64,000 bases of DNA, taken from Fimbriimonas ginsengisoli Gsoil 348. GTDB lineage: Bacteria; Armatimonadota; Fimbriimonadia; Fimbriimonadales; Fimbriimonadaceae. The stretch covers positions 186,001 to 250,000 of the forward strand of contig NZ_CP007139.1 in the NCBI RefSeq assembly GCF_000724625.1. Reading direction: 5' to 3'. Shown here in pieces: positions 6,855 to 26,894 of this stretch. Each line of letters starts with the position of its first letter. Within the stretch, counting starts at the first letter, position 1. The notes beneath the pieces are model-generated. The model saw only the letters and a program-made list of their open reading frames with translations, did not search any database and had not been told where the DNA came from. The translations under genes and the position numbers were made by a program.

Positions 6855-6940
6855 GACAGGCAACCCGGCTCTCTCGGCTCCTGACCGAGATCCTTGGCTT
6901 TGCGTGGTAGGGGTCACCCCCATCGTGCCATTTTTCTGTC
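6855..6940 (-). promoter_or_regulatory. Probable cyclic-di-GMP-I (GEMM-I) riboswitch
   Basis: Read on the minus strand, the leader of flgM shows the GEMM-I parts in order. These are P1 5' strand GACAG (6936-6940), an A-rich joint, UGGCA, a stem GGGG/CCCC capped by a GUGA (GNRA) tetraloop, the invariant ACGCAAAGCC, a second stem CUCGG/CCGAG, GCCGGGUUGCC, and P1 3' strand CUGUC (6855-6859). Total length is about 86 nt, as in the family. The first core differs somewhat (GGCACGA where GGGCAAA is usual). Only 22 nt separate it from the flgM ATG. CCUG of the P1 3' side could pair with CAGG of the ribosome site, so ligand binding would free the site (inferred ON switch). Confidence 0.72.
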
Positions 6941-21932: not shown

Positions 21933-22442
21933 TCAGGCTTCGGCGAATAGGTCACGGACGGTTTTATAGGATAAGAACAGCCGCAGCGGATTCACGGTTG
22001 AGGGGATCATGTCGAACTTTTCATAGAACCGCTTGGCTTCCTCATCCTTTGCATCTACTACAAAGAGGCGAACGGGAGCCGCTCCGGATTCCATTACGGC
22101 CCATGTCCTACGAATTGCGTCCACGAAGAGCGAACGTCCGAGACCTTTCCCTTGCACCGACCGGTCGACGGCAAATCGCGCCATAAGCACTGCCGGTATG
22201 GTGCTGGGCATCCCTCGTCCCAGTTTCTTTGGCGACTCTTCTTGTCTGACTGAGACGAATGTAAGCGTGTAATATCCGACGACACGGAGCCCGCTCGCCA
22301 CTACGTAAGTGCGGGAGAGCATCGCGTTCTGCTTATCTAATGCGTGAAGTCGCAGAAAGTCGTTCAACTGAGGCTTGCCGCAGTCGAACAGGGAAGTTTG
22401 GTGGCCATCTCGTATCGGGACGGGCGGGCTAAGCTCGATCAT
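21933..22442 (-). CDS. GNAT acetyltransferase, TacT-type toxin
   Basis: A 169-residue GNAT protein. TacT toxins acetylate the amino group of aminoacyl-tRNA and stop translation. Features are an N-terminal DGHQTSLFDCGKPQLNDFLR (the 'F.cG...Ld.fL' opening typical of this toxin clade), VVGYYTLTFVSV, MARFAVDRSVQGKGLGRSLFVDAI (acetyl-CoA loop QGKGLG) and a C-terminal FYEKFDMIPS with the Tyr general-acid position. It overlaps the DUF1778 gene by 14 bp. Confidence 0.85.
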   Translation of the reverse strand: MIELSPPVPIRDGHQTSLFDCGKPQLNDFLRLHALDKQNAMLSRTYVVASGLRVVGYYTLTFVSVRQEESPKKLGRGMPSTIPAVLMARFAVDRSVQGKGLGRSLFVDAIRRTWAVMESGAAPVRLFVVDAKDEEAKRFYEKFDMIPSTVNPLRLFLSYKTVRDLFAEA

Positions 22443-22716
22443 CCCAAACCGGTGTCTTTTTCAGGGCCTCGCGGAGGTGGGGCGTGGGACTCGCTTCGTC
22501 CATTAGGGACGCGAGCCATCGATACTCTTCCGCAGAGACGGTAACCACCGCCTCTGCGGCAATTACCTGCTCTGCCTCGCGTAGAGAGGCTTGAAGCACA
22601 AACTGACTGACGTTCATATGCCTCGCCAGCGCGGCTTGGGCAAGGACCGCCTTCTGGTCGGCACTCGTCCGAATTGAAAGTCGATCTTCTTTCCCGTTCG
22701 AGGCTAGGTGTGACAT
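22429..22716 (-). CDS. DUF1778 (TacA-type) antitoxin
   Basis: 95 residues from the ATG at 22714-22716. Longer upstream frames run into repeats. It has an N-terminal ribbon-helix-helix region (DRLSIRTSADQKAVLAQAAL, then MNVSQFVLQASLREAEQVI) and a C-terminal tail that would cover the toxin (PTPHLREALKKTPVWDDRA). DUF1778 proteins repress their own operon together with the GNAT toxin. A strong promoter lies only about 10 bp upstream, so the transcript should be nearly leaderless, which agrees with the missing Shine-Dalgarno. Confidence 0.85.
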   Translation of the reverse strand: MSHLASNGKEDRLSIRTSADQKAVLAQAALARHMNVSQFVLQASLREAEQVIAAEAVVTVSAEEYRWLASLMDEASPTPHLREALKKTPVWDDRA

Positions 22717-22726
22717 CGCAGGTTCA

Positions 22727-22756
22727 ATTGTATCACCAACGTACACCCACTGGCAA
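22727..22756 (-). promoter_or_regulatory. Sigma-70-type promoter of the TacA/TacT operon
   Basis: On the minus strand TTGCCA (22751-22756), an 18-bp spacer and TACAAT (22727-22732). The predicted start of transcription falls a few bases before the antitoxin ATG. Confidence 0.65.
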
Positions 22757-22771
22757 GGGGAAACATGGATC

Positions 22772-22794
22772 CATCGGCTGGAAACCAGTGCTAC
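22772..22794. repeat. Palindrome family D, diverged copy
   Basis: CATCGGCTGGAAACCAGTGC followed by TAC; stem CTGG/CCAG with compensating changes relative to the main family. A C-rich family A-like remnant follows at about 22800-22832. Confidence 0.6.
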
Positions 22795-22902
22795 GACCGG
22801 AACCTCCACCCCCAACCCCCCTCCTCCTCCCGTTCGCGATCTGCGGTGTCGAAATATGGGACACGGTAACCGCGACGGCAAGAGGAGGGGGCTCCGGAGA
22901 GG

Positions 22903-22932
22903 TTGGCAAAACCTGCGCGGATGGTGTAAGGT
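22903..22932 (+). promoter_or_regulatory. Candidate promoter of the ilv leader
   Basis: TTGGCA (22903-22908), an 18-bp spacer and TAAGGT (22927-22932). The -35 is good and the -10 weak (three of six consensus positions). It lies directly before the leader peptide at 22943. Confidence 0.4.
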
Positions 22933-22942
22933 GTATGTAACC

Positions 22943-23047
22943 GTGAGTTCACACGTCGTCGCGAGCAAGGTTCAGGTCCGGGATACCAAGGTGTCCGGGC
23001 TTCTGCTTGCGTCTCTATCCCTAATTATTCTAGGCATTACCACTTAA
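22943..23047 (+). CDS. ilvL: Branched-chain amino acid leader peptide (attenuator)
   Basis: A 34-codon frame starting GTG with AAGGTG 9 nt upstream. The second half reads LLLASLSLIILGITT before TAA: six Leu, three Ile and two Thr in 15 residues, with six Val (counting the GTG start) in the first half. Such a peptide senses charged tRNA for exactly the amino acids made by the downstream genes. When those tRNAs are short, the ribosome stalls and the terminator hairpin at 23083-23116 is prevented from forming. It ends 36 nt before that hairpin and 166 nt before ilvB. The symbol is used by function; homology to enterobacterial IlvL is not implied. Confidence 0.75.
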   Translation: MSSHVVASKVQVRDTKVSGLLLASLSLIILGITT

Positions 23048-23082
23048 ACCTGGGAAGACACGACGACACTCGAAAGAATGAA

Positions 23083-23116
23083 AGAAGGCCTTCCTGGGAA
23101 ACCGGGAAGGCCTTCT
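23083..23116 (+). terminator. Attenuator hairpin upstream of ilvB
   Basis: AGAAGGCCTTCC TGG, a GAAA tetraloop, then CCG GGAAGGCCTTCT: 12 perfect pairs plus three inner pairs (one G-T). Downstream bases are TCTGCTTT, a weak T tract. The position after the Leu/Ile-rich leader peptide makes it the probable attenuation terminator. AAGGCCTT within the arms is itself palindromic, so alternative pairing is possible. Confidence 0.72.
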
Positions 23117-23212
23117 CTGCTTTAAGGGCTCGCAGATGCGCCCGCCGAGCAAAAGAGGTGAACGAAAGGAAGGATACGCGCCGACAACGCCGTCGGCTCT
23201 CAAGGTCCGAGG

Positions 23213-24934
23213 ATGGACCGGGAGCGAATACGAACGATGGAACGATCTGGTGCGCAAGTAGTGATGGAAGCGTTGGTACGCCAAGGGGTAGACACCCTGT
23301 TCGGCTACCCCGGCGGCGTGGTGCTGCCGCTGTACGACGAGATGTTGAATTGGCCGCAGGTCCGGCACGTGCTCGTGCGACACGAGCAATGTGCGGCCCA
23401 CATGGCCGACGGTTATGCTCGGGCCACGAACCGGGTCGGAGTCTGCCTCGCCACGAGCGGGCCGGGCGCCACGAACCTAGTGACCGGCATCGCCACCGCG
23501 ATCATGGACTCGGTTCCGATGGTCGTGCTTACCGGCAACGTCAACTCGTGGGCGATCGGCAAGGATGCGTTCCAGGAGACCGACATCCAGGGGATCACGA
23601 TCCCGATCACTAAGCACAACTACCTCGTGACCAACGTTCACGATCTGCCGTACGTGCTGGAAGAGGCTTTCTTCCTCGCCAACACCGGACGCAAAGGGCC
23701 GGTGCTCGTCGACATCCCCAAGGACGTCTTCATCGCCAAAACGGCCATCCCGTTCCCTGAGCGCGTCGTCCGCCGCGGCTATTCCCTGCCCGGCAACCCC
23801 TGCGCCGACGAGATCGCGGAAGCCGTGCGTTTGCTCCAAGAAGCCGAGCGGCCGGTCGTCATCTCCGGCGCCGGAGTCGTATGGTCGGAGACCTCTCACC
23901 TCATCCGGGAGCTCGCCGAGAAGGCGGACGTGCCGATCATCAACTCGCTCCTGGGCCTCGGCACCATCCCGCGCGACGATCCTCGCTCGATGGGAATGAT
24001 GGGGATGCACGGGGAAGCTTCGGCGACTATCGCCGTGCAAAACGCGGACCTCGTTATCGGCATCGGCAACCGGTTCGACGACCGGCTGACCGGCAAGACG
24101 GCCGGCTTCGCGCCGAAAGCGAAGATCGTCCACTTCGATATCGATCCGAGCGAGTTCGGCAAGAGCGTCGATACGTTCCACACCGTCACCGGCGATCTCG
24201 CGCAAACCCTTGCTGCGTTCGTTGCCGCCGTACCCCGCAAGACGCACGAAGGGTGGTGGAAACAGCTTCGCGCGTGGCAAGAGGAGTTCCCGATCGTCGT
24301 ACCGGAGGACGGGCGGTTCCTTTCTCGCACGGTTTTGCACGCGCTGAACAAGGCGACGGACGGACGGGCGATCGTCAGCACCGATGTCGGGCAGCACCAG
24401 ATGTGGACGGCGCAGCTCTACCGCTTCCGCGAGCCGAAGAACTGGCTCTCCAGCGGCGGCCTCGGAACGATGGGGTTTGGCCTCCCCGCCGCCATGGGCG
24501 CGAAATTCGCACGGCCGGAGGAAGAGGTTTGGGCGGTGGTGGGCGACGGTGGCTTCCAGATGACGCTGCAAGAGCTCCAGACCGCGGTCGAGAATAACCT
24601 GAACGTTAAGATCTGCCTGCTCAACAACGGATACCTCGGCATGGTCCGGCAGTGGCAGGAGCTGTTCTACGACAACCGCTACAGCCACGTGGCGATGGGC
24701 TCGCCCGACTACGGCAAGCTCGCGGACGCCTATGGGGTCGCGTTCTTCCGCTGCTCGCGGGCCGAAGATCTGGAAGCCACGTTCGCGGCGGCGAGAGCTC
24801 ATCAGGGTCCGACCCTGTGCGAGTTCGTCGTCGAGATGGAGGAGAACGTCTTCCCGATGGTCGCCGCCGGCGCCACCAACGACAGCCTGGTCATGGATCC
24901 GGCCCTGAAGCAGTTCGCGGAGGCGAAGAAATGA
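23213..24934 (+). CDS. ilvB: Acetolactate synthase, large subunit
   Basis: A 573-residue ThDP enzyme forming acetolactate or acetohydroxybutyrate, the first common step of Val/Leu/Ile synthesis. Motifs are GVDTLFGYPGGVVLPLYD, VRHEQCAAHMADGYAR with the catalytic Glu, and LATSGPGATNLVTGIA. The FAD region includes GIGNRFDDRLTGKT, and the ThDP/Mg motif is VGDGGFQMTLQELQTAVENN. The ATG at 23213 is used; an ATG at 23237 eight codons later is equally possible. Its stop overlaps the next start as ATGA. Confidence 0.96.
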   Translation: MDRERIRTMERSGAQVVMEALVRQGVDTLFGYPGGVVLPLYDEMLNWPQVRHVLVRHEQCAAHMADGYARATNRVGVCLATSGPGATNLVTGIATAIMDSVPMVVLTGNVNSWAIGKDAFQETDIQGITIPITKHNYLVTNVHDLPYVLEEAFFLANTGRKGPVLVDIPKDVFIAKTAIPFPERVVRRGYSLPGNPCADEIAEAVRLLQEAERPVVISGAGVVWSETSHLIRELAEKADVPIINSLLGLGTIPRDDPRSMGMMGMHGEASATIAVQNADLVIGIGNRFDDRLTGKTAGFAPKAKIVHFDIDPSEFGKSVDTFHTVTGDLAQTLAAFVAAVPRKTHEGWWKQLRAWQEEFPIVVPEDGRFLSRTVLHALNKATDGRAIVSTDVGQHQMWTAQLYRFREPKNWLSSGGLGTMGFGLPAAMGAKFARPEEEVWAVVGDGGFQMTLQELQTAVENNLNVKICLLNNGYLGMVRQWQELFYDNRYSHVAMGSPDYGKLADAYGVAFFRCSRAEDLEATFAAARAHQGPTLCEFVVEMEENVFPMVAAGATNDSLVMDPALKQFAEAKK

Positions 24935-25116
24935 AAGAGTACGGCTTTGTAAGTTGGCCCTTTTTGGACGAGAGTGGCACGGGCAGCTTGCCCGTGTGTA
25001 TCTCGGGCGGCTCGCCCGAGCAATACGAATTCCACGCGCAAGCTGCGCGTGATACCCACGGGCGGGCCGCCCGTGCCACGGCTGAGTGGGAAGAGTACGA
25101 GGAGATCGCAGCGTGA
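24931..25116 (+). CDS. Small coupled ORF made largely of repeat sequence
   Basis: A 61-codon frame. Its ATG overlaps the ilvB stop (ATGA, 24931-24934) and its TGA overlaps the ilvN GTG (GTGA, 25113-25116), so a ribosome could pass from ilvB to ilvN without release. The middle is built from three short palindromes, giving a peptide with no recognisable fold (opens MKEYGFVSWPFLDESG, ends WEEYEEIAA). It may be a translated spacer whose job is coupling rather than a functional protein. Confidence 0.4.
   Translation: MKEYGFVSWPFLDESGTGSLPVCISGGSPEQYEFHAQAARDTHGRAARATAEWEEYEEIAA
24973..25081. repeat. Three nested palindromes inside the ilvB-ilvN spacer
   Basis: GGCACGGGCAGCTTGCCCGTG, then GGGCGGCTCGCCC, then CGCGCAAGCTGCGCG, then CACGGGCGGGCCGCCCGTG followed by CC. 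The first and last modules share outer GGCACGGGC/GCCCGTGCC ends, so the whole block is also an inverted repeat. The same type is found at 57774-57912. Confidence 0.7.
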
Positions 25117-25592
25117 GTAAACGACAACACACCATCACCGCCTTGGTTCAGAACGAGGCGGGGACGCTTAACCGCCTCGTCTCTCTCTTCCGCCGCCGCG
25201 GGTTCTCGCTCGCCTCGCTCAACGCCGGGGATTGCGAGCAGCCCGGCTTTTCGCGCCTCACCCTTGTGGTCGAAGGGGACGACAACACTCTCAACCAGTG
25301 CCTTCGCCAGCTCGAGAAGCTGATCGATGTGGTCGAGGTCGCCGACGTTCAGCCGGAGGATGCGGTCGAGCGCGAACTCGCGCTCGTTCGGGTGAAACCG
25401 ACGCCGGAGCAGCGCGATTCCGTCTTCCGAATCGCCTCCGAGTTCAACGCCCGGACGCCAAGGGCGTCGGAAAAAGGATATGTCGTGGAGGTTTCGACCA
25501 GTCCGGCCGAGATCGAACGGCTGATCCAGGCGCTAACCCCATTTGGCATGGGCGAGGTGGTCCGGTCCGGCTTGGTCGCGATGCGGGTCTAA
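25113..25592 (+). CDS. ilvN: Acetolactate synthase, small (regulatory) subunit
   Basis: 159 residues from the GTG at 25113, chosen because GAGGAG lies 8 nt upstream and the start overlaps the previous stop; a GTG at 25086 has no such site. The N-terminal ACT domain reads HTITALVQNEAGTLNRLVSLF then RRGFSLASLNAG. The C-terminal half matches ALS_ss_C (RELALVRVKPTPEQR, RIASEFNARTPRASEKGYVVE). It binds valine in feedback inhibition and activates IlvB. Confidence 0.93.
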   Translation: MSKRQHTITALVQNEAGTLNRLVSLFRRRGFSLASLNAGDCEQPGFSRLTLVVEGDDNTLNQCLRQLEKLIDVVEVADVQPEDAVERELALVRVKPTPEQRDSVFRIASEFNARTPRASEKGYVVEVSTSPAEIERLIQALTPFGMGEVVRSGLVAMRV

Positions 25593-25886: not shown

Positions 25887-26894
25887 ATGGCAACCATCTA
25901 TTACGAAAAAGACATTCATCCCGAGCTCATCAAGTCGAGCAAGGTCGCGGTCGTCGGTTACGGCTCTCAAGGGCATGCCCACGCACAGAATCTCCGCGAC
26001 TCGGGGGTCGAGGTCGTCGTCGCCCTCTACCCGGGGAGCAAGAGTCGGGCGAAGGCGGAAGGGGACGGGTTCTGCGTGATGAACGTCCCGGAGGCTACCG
26101 ACTGGGCCGATGTGATCATGTTCTGCACCCCCGACGTGCCGATGAGCAAGATCTACAACGACGGCGTCGCACCGAGACTACGCGACGGGCAGCTACTACT
26201 ATTCGCCCACGGTCTGAACATCCACTTCGGCCTCATCGAACCGCCGAAGAACGTCGATGTCGCGATGGTGGCTCCGAAGGGTCCCGGTCACCGGCTGCGC
26301 GCGGAATACGTCGGCGGCGCGGGGATGCCGGCCCTCGTAGCGGTTCATCAGGACGCGACGGGTCAGGCGAAGGAGAGGGCGCTCGCCTACGCTTGGGGCA
26401 TCGGCTCGGGCAAAGCCGGCGTTCTGGAAACGACGTTCAAAGAGGAGACTGAGACGGACCTATTCGGTGAGCAGGCCGTGCTGTGCGGCGGCCTCTCGGC
26501 ACTTATCAAGGCCGGATTTGAGACGCTCGTGGACGCGGGCTACCAGCCGGAAGCGGCCTACTTCGAGTGCCTCCACGAGACCAAGCTCATCGTCGACCTC
26601 CTCTACGAAGGCGGCCTCAACTACATGCGCTATTCGATCTCGGACACGGCCGAGTGGGGCGACTACACCGCCGGTCCGAAGGTAATCAACTCTCAGAGCC
26701 GGGAAGCGATGAACGGTTTGCTCAAGGATATCCAGGACGGCACCTTCGCCAAACGCTGGATCGAGGAGAACGAAGCCGGCCTGCCGAACATGAAGCGGTA
26801 CCGCGAGGAGGAGTCGAAGCACCCGATCGAAGAAGTCGGCAAACGCCTGCGCGCGATGATGCCGTTCTTGAAGACGAAGGAGGTGCCGGTCTAG
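25887..26894 (+). CDS. ilvC: Ketol-acid reductoisomerase (class I)
   Basis: A 335-residue NAD(P)H and Mg2+ enzyme that rearranges and reduces acetolactate to dihydroxyisovalerate. The Rossmann loop is [20 protein letters not shown]. Further blocks are [17 protein letters not shown] (substrate), [14 protein letters not shown] with the metal-binding Asp/Glu, and [20 protein letters not shown]. Length fits the short class I form. The beta2-alphaB cofactor loop [13 protein letters not shown] has Ser residues, which suggests NADPH preference. Confidence 0.95.

Follow-up and report, generated by a model that had tools for sequence, protein, structure and literature searches.

The genes ilvB, ilvH and ilvC of Fimbriimonas ginsengisoli, a soil-dwelling and little-studied member of Armatimonadota, are best explained, on the evidence of sequence comparison, as standing under the control of a ribosome-mediated transcription attenuator, a reading to which we assign a probability of roughly 0.9. 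An original prediction of leader-peptide attenuation of the ilv operon is therefore supported, through the parts of the element, their covariation and the selection on the leader across the family. That is, a short frame rich in leucine and isoleucine codons is followed at its stop codon by a strand that can pair with one arm of a terminator-type hairpin, and the genes after the hairpin (ilvB, ilvH and ilvC) make the amino acids that would be sensed. The window is the whole stretch of DNA that was analysed, 64,000 nucleotides in length, and it comprises bases 186001-250000 of a single-contig genome of 5,231,762 bases. The features of the locus, in window positions, are the following.

22903-22932, + strand: probable sigma-70-type promoter of the leader transcript (TTGGCA 22903-22908, 18-nt spacer, TAAGGT 22927-22932)
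22943-23047, + strand: leader peptide ORF of 34 codons (GTG start 22943, TAA stop 23045-23047)
23049-23057, + strand: antiterminator strand CCTGGGAAG, beginning 1 nt past the leader stop
23083-23116, + strand: terminator-type hairpin of 15 bp with a GAAA loop (5' arm 23083-23097, 3' arm 23102-23116)
23117-23125, + strand: U-poor tail CTGCTTTAA (xxTGCTTT in the window's subset of loci)
23180-23224, + strand: second conserved element (P1, CCGAC 23181-23185/GTCGG 23192-23196; P2, GGTCC 23204-23208/GGACC 23215-23219; SD, GGGAG 23220-23224)
23237-24934, + strand: ilvB, acetolactate synthase large subunit, 565 aa from the conserved start (Pfam TPP_enzyme_N/M/C)
25086-25592, + strand: ilvH/N, acetolactate synthase small subunit (Pfam ALS_ss_C, ACT_AHAS_ss)
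25887-26894, + strand: ilvC, ketol-acid reductoisomerase (Pfam KARI_N/KARI_C)

Both the 34-codon leader and the 15-bp hairpin with its GAAA loop were found before ilvB as originally described. The leader peptide of the window, MSSHVVASKVQVRDTKVSGLLLASLSLIILGITT, ends in LLLASLSLIILGITT, and its last 16 codons include six for leucine and three for isoleucine. Over the family as a whole, the last 16 leader residues are 37% leucine, 16% isoleucine and 13% valine, as compared to 10, 4 and 8% in the genes of the window; the three residues together make up 66% of these positions, versus 22% in window genes. Thus, of the composition first proposed (leucine, isoleucine and valine, plus the precursor threonine), the branched-chain part stands, even though valine is absent from the last 16 codons of the window's own leader, while threonine, at 5% in the 29 leaders of the family and 5% in the background, is rejected as a sensed precursor. 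Synonymous codon usage in the leaders departs from that of the window genes as well, with CTT accounting for 49% of leucine codons (14% in window genes) and ATT for 78% of isoleucine codons (also 14%). Pooled over ten close pairs, the leader codons yield a pN/pS of 0.49, and a value of about 0.5 indicates purifying selection. Alignment gaps within the Leu/Ile-rich part of the leader come in multiples of three. We regard the frame at 22943-23047 as a small gene that the annotation missed. In folding calculations the whole leader region of the window is more stable than its shuffles (z -4.4), and pairings within the window leader are predicted; the alignment of relatives reveals no apparent conserved 1:2 pause/protector hairpin.

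Translation of the leader probably begins on a leaderless mRNA, or on one that is nearly so: in 27 of 29 family loci a TANNNT box lies 4-14 nt 5' of the start codon of the leader, and SD-like strings occur near that start in only three of the 29, each of them overlapping or adjoining the TANNNT box. The gene ilvB has its own SD (GGGAG/AGGAG) in most family loci. In the window, the -35 box TTGGCA of the leader promoter was read by eye, and the promoter at 22903-22932 was not called by a generic promoter scan. TATAAT- or CATAAT-like boxes are also seen near the start codons of the leuA-like and trpE genes of the genus (L237-L255, L267-L285), which suggests that leaderless mRNAs may be common in the genus. 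Leaderless attenuating ORFs are reportedly known in mycobacteria (Canestrari et al. 2020, as cited in PMC13236596).

Other features of the window were noted as well. An intergenic inverted-repeat element at 22803-22905 (CCCCCTCCTCCTCCCGTTCGCG ... CGCGACGGCAAGAGGAGGGGG), with at least seven related copies in the genome, folds to long hairpins and is a REP-like or small mobile repeat. On the - strand, divergent from ilvB, 21933-22968 holds genes for a TacA1-like antitoxin and a GNAT acetyltransferase, which are probably a TacAT-type toxin-antitoxin pair. A c-di-GMP-I riboswitch aptamer, scoring just above the Rfam gathering threshold, lies at 6856-6939, also on the - strand.

The hairpin itself, AGAAGGCCTTCCTGG-GAAA-CCGGGAAGGCCTTCT, has a predicted stability of -31 kcal/mol (z -4.6), which no shuffle matched. 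No + strand gene that would need it as a terminator was seen upstream, where the TacA/GNAT genes lie on the - strand. Within its 5' arm is the partner of the antiterminator strand, CTTCCTGGG: positions 23049-23057 pair with 23090-23098 over 9 bp, including two G-U pairs. The antiterminator strand in effect duplicates the 3' arm of the terminator, CCGGGAAG, at a site that would lie beneath a ribosome terminating at the leader stop. At -14 kcal/mol, the antiterminator of the window is much weaker than the terminator.

In order to place the window among its relatives, we rely on an IlvB protein search of 41 genomes, which returned 16 loci from the genus, counting the window, in which the gene is full-length. 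They are built alike throughout: a Leu/Ile/Val-rich leader of 33-40 residues, an antiterminator strand at its stop codon, and a terminator hairpin. A scan for this architecture (an L/I/V-rich short frame, a hairpin and a U-rich tail) recovered 15 of the 16 genus loci and none of 160 shuffles. Two of the 16 (L010 and L019) have an unrelated terminator sequence, GCCCCCCGGTCAGG..., and in both the stop-codon strand differs correspondingly. A covariance model built from the 16 sequences and searched against 291 genomes of the phylum detected the element before ilvB in 11 further loci, all from other genera of the family, and each of these has a BCAA-rich leader of its own that stops at or near the same place; two further loci (L172 and L173) were missed by the model and proved on inspection to have the element. 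Leaving aside one ilvB locus cut by a contig end (G133/L151), the architecture is thus present in all 29 testable ilvB loci of the family, spread over eight genera, with leaders of 31-47 residues and 8-12 Leu/Ile/Val in the last 16 codons of every one. A stable terminator hairpin, conserved and covarying in the relatives, is found in all 29 as well. Weaker matches of the model elsewhere (L146, L147, L149 and others weaker still) are plain terminators without a leader, and we saw no attenuator of this type at the leuA-like and trpE genes of the genus, so the attenuator looks specific to ilvB.

An antiterminator of 6-12 bp can be drawn in 28 of the 29 loci; relative to the end of the stop codon, it starts between -1 and +4 nt in 26 of them, and in the other two it overlaps the stop. 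In one family locus, L172, the antiterminator is weak (-10 kcal/mol). Across these 28 helices, 233 of 241 pairs are Watson-Crick, and the strand takes 16 different sequences, each matched by the terminator arm of its own locus (for example ATATCGGG/CCCGATAT, CTGCCTGACC/GGTCAGGCAG and CGCCCCAGGAAG/CTTCCTGGGGTG). Against dinucleotide-shuffled spacers, the pairing attains p≤0.04 in each of the 16 genus loci, with p=0.01 in the window. The 28 helices were picked as the best ones available, and the fair test is therefore to swap partners between loci. The summed pairing of true partners was beaten in none of 5000 permutations, and in none of 20000 when only 12 representatives of distinct types were retained. 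Thus, the antiterminator and terminator sequences co-vary between species. The window's own pairing ranks only fifth of 12 in the swap, and so the signal of coevolution comes from other species. The alignment of ilvB upstream regions that had been proposed as a check on the prediction accordingly bears it out, with a hydrophobic leader frame in 29 of 29 and a covarying antiterminator in 28 of 29 testable family loci. This comparison shows directly which parts are present, how they are ordered and spaced, that they are conserved and co-vary, and that the leader is under selection at the level of codons.

From these observations we infer that the leader is translated, where its transcript starts, that transcription is terminated or relieved according to the ribosome's progress, and which amino acids are sensed. 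Transcription would start at, or a few bases before, the leader GTG, and a ribosome would load although the 5' end is very short. Where charged tRNA for leucine and isoleucine (and possibly valine) is sufficient, the ribosome would reach the stop codon at 23045-23047, where its footprint would mask the antiterminator strand, CCUGGGAAG, and leave the 5' arm of the hairpin free for its own 3' arm; the terminator would then form, and RNA polymerase would stop before ilvB. Under a shortage of leucine or isoleucine, the ribosome would instead stall within the last 16 codons, at a distance of roughly 10-45 bases on the 5' side of the antiterminator strand. The exposed strand would then pair with the terminator's 5' arm once that arm is made, which would forestall the terminator and let ilvB be transcribed. 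Because the antiterminator is much the weaker of the two structures, such a switch must be kinetic, decided before the 3' arm of the terminator is transcribed.

It is important to ask whether the output is indeed the termination of transcription. The original prediction had noted a weak T tract and taken it to mean that control might act on translation or pausing; under this alternative, the leader ribosome refolds the RNA and the translation of ilvB is regulated, perhaps with the second conserved element, near the SD, as the output. The premise holds for the window, whose hairpin and U-poor tail went unscored by a terminator scan, and for its subset of loci, in several of which the tail ...TGCTTT is conserved. 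It does not hold in general, since U-rich tails accompany an identical architecture in about half of the relatives, and we take termination to be the shared function for this reason; termination is possibly less efficient at the window's tail. Moreover, about 100 nt separate the end of the hairpin from the SD of ilvB, with which it makes no contact. The second element is conserved, covaries and adjoins the SD, which in the window is partly paired; however, such pairing of the SD is found in only some loci, and we therefore reject sequestration of the SD by P2 as a conserved switch. We consider translational or pausing control improbable as the main output, and the suggestion first made from the T tract is not sustained.

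The second element deserves a description in its own right. P1 has the consensus CCGAC-ANNGNC-GTCGG, with a loop RNNGNN, and P2 the consensus GGNCC...GGNCC; the two hairpins are conserved with compensatory changes, and their covariation was equalled in none of 500 shuffles. Within the genus, P1-P2 is clearly found at ilvB only; a genus-wide regulon is rejected, as no convincing copy turned up elsewhere. Tentatively, and with the odds against it as we see them, the ilvB mRNA of this family might have two stacked RNA controls, the attenuator and then an undescribed tandem-hairpin element before the SD, in which case P1-P2 may regulate translation via a protein, an RNA or a metabolite. The start of ilvB is corrected as well. 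The ATG at 23213, formerly taken as the start, falls within the loop of a different hairpin and lacks conservation, and the start is therefore placed at 23237, where the conserved sequence ATGGAACGATCTGG is preceded by GGGAG. The true start of ilvH/N may likewise be a GTG about 27 nt downstream of the listed ORF start. The gap between ilvB and ilvH (24937-25086) is rich in inverted GGGCGG(C)NNGCCCG repeats, which resemble other short repeats of the genome (L039 1-120).

The short frame might also encode a functional small membrane protein, with the hairpin as the ordinary terminator of its mRNA, as would suit the hydrophobic C-terminal half of the peptide, the purifying selection on the frame, and the terminator that follows. 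However, between genera only the Leu/Ile/Val content is kept and not the residues, the frame always lies directly before ilvB, and its predominance of ATT among isoleucine codons is unlike an ordinary gene. A plain gene would not, furthermore, need the strand past its stop to co-vary with a terminator arm. We regard this alternative as very unlikely.

The attenuator reading is set in relief by the rest of the phylum. The same scan for a leader-peptide architecture found none in 60 ilvB upstream regions from other families of Armatimonadota (3/600 shuffles), and 5 in 76 ilvB loci of other phyla (6/760 shuffles). Three of these five (L051, L059 and L087, from a Thermomicrobium MAG and two other MAGs) look convincing, with a BCAA-rich short frame and a terminator 5' of ilvB, and are candidate attenuators. 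In other Armatimonadota, the Rfam T-box model (RF00230) matches 5' of ilvB in 4 of 20 regions; phylum-wide, T-boxes occur in 151 of 291 genomes, and in at least 33 of the genomes, by a matching of T-box and ilvB coordinates done by hand, one lies on the strand of ilvB and no more than 200 nt upstream of it. No T-box was found in the window or the family loci, nor anywhere in the genomes of the family and the order. Relatives that retain ilvB without a leader frame, the case that had been named as contrary to the prediction, are thus seen outside the family only, often with a T-box instead. Since within the phylum the leader-peptide device was found in this family and the T-box stands at the same place elsewhere, the tRNA-charging sensor of ilvB has apparently been swapped inside Armatimonadota, and the simplest reading of the order of events is that the T-box was lost and the leader then gained.

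That a T-box or a ligand-binding riboswitch controls ilvB here and the reading frame is accidental is the least credible of the alternatives: such T-boxes of other Armatimonadota, and the ppGpp riboswitches that govern ilvB in some bacteria (PMC10272879), lend it precedent, but neither the window region nor 11 family loci have any Rfam match, the family and order lack T-boxes, and the leader frame is under selection. A permissive Rfam search of the locus returned sub-threshold, unrelated families only, among them CC2171, a bare hairpin similarity.

Two further observations concern ilvB itself. Many genomes of the family and order have no close ilvB homologue, and the attenuator accompanies the gene where it persists; this suggests repeated loss of branched-chain amino acid synthesis in the family or order. 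In many other Armatimonadota genomes (G191-G200, G202-G207, G046, G047, G222, G247, G262 and others), the ilvB frame is reported with one internal stop, mostly TGA; the match may simply extend over the stop codon of the gene itself, or this may be a case of stop-codon readthrough or recoding.

The apparent swap amounts to a natural experiment, in which one and the same gene has a T-box as its sensor in many families and a leader peptide in a single family, in whose entire order no T-box was found, so that the exchange of tRNA-charging sensors in evolution becomes traceable. It also indicates how little an attenuator may need: a frame, probably leaderless, and right after its stop a strand that repeats the 3' arm of the terminator. 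For the annotation, the yield is one small gene overlooked so far, a promoter, a revised start for ilvB and an RNA model that can be used in searches.

Leader-peptide attenuation is well described in Proteobacteria and Actinobacteria. In the leaders of ilvGMEDA, ilvBN and leu of E. coli, the peptide is rich in the end product and the output is the termination of transcription, with a ribosome-binding site for the leader and a 1:2 pause hairpin; here, in contrast, neither an SD for the leader nor a conserved pause hairpin was found. Attenuators of ilvB have been reported from Corynebacterium (PMC10272879, PMC11857589), from M. tuberculosis (PMC13236596) and from Actinobacteria generally (PMC1262725), along with leader peptides in Firmicutes (PMC2965389), an ilv-leu attenuator in S. 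aureus (PMC5794164), and ilvB-OMG and ilvB motifs in other lineages (PMC10272879). We found nothing on leader-peptide attenuation in Armatimonadota in the open-access literature.

The ilvBNC attenuator of Corynebacterium (the ilvB-II motif of Actinomycetota; PMC10272879, PMC11857589) resembles ours in its BCAA-rich frame before ilvB, in its terminator with a mutually exclusive antiterminator, and in occurring once per genome, always at ilvB. It differs in a leader of 15-17 aa in most representatives, as compared to 31-47 here, and in a third, anti-antiterminator hairpin, of which no conserved counterpart was found; no shared sequence was seen. The ilvB-OMG motif (41 representatives from various phyla) and the Leptospira ilvB motif (PMC10272879) likewise have candidate uORFs rich in BCAA codons before ilvB, but theirs, as described, are also rich in threonine, which is at background here. 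No Rfam family reached threshold in the family loci, from a library that may not include ilvB-II or ilvB-OMG. The T-box (RF00230) of other Armatimonadota shares the gene, the position and the reading of tRNA charging, but it senses uncharged tRNA directly, with no leader peptide. The logic is the same in ilvB1 of M. tuberculosis (PMC13236596), where the antiterminator strand is hidden by a ribosome that has reached the leader stop and exposed by one that has stalled; the geometry of our element, with the stop codon 0-4 bases from the strand, fits that model. The control stretch there is a short LVVI, and the support is experimental, from SEnd-seq and reporters, whereas here it comes from sequence comparison. 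Thus, the mechanism proposed here is one already known, and the lineage is new.
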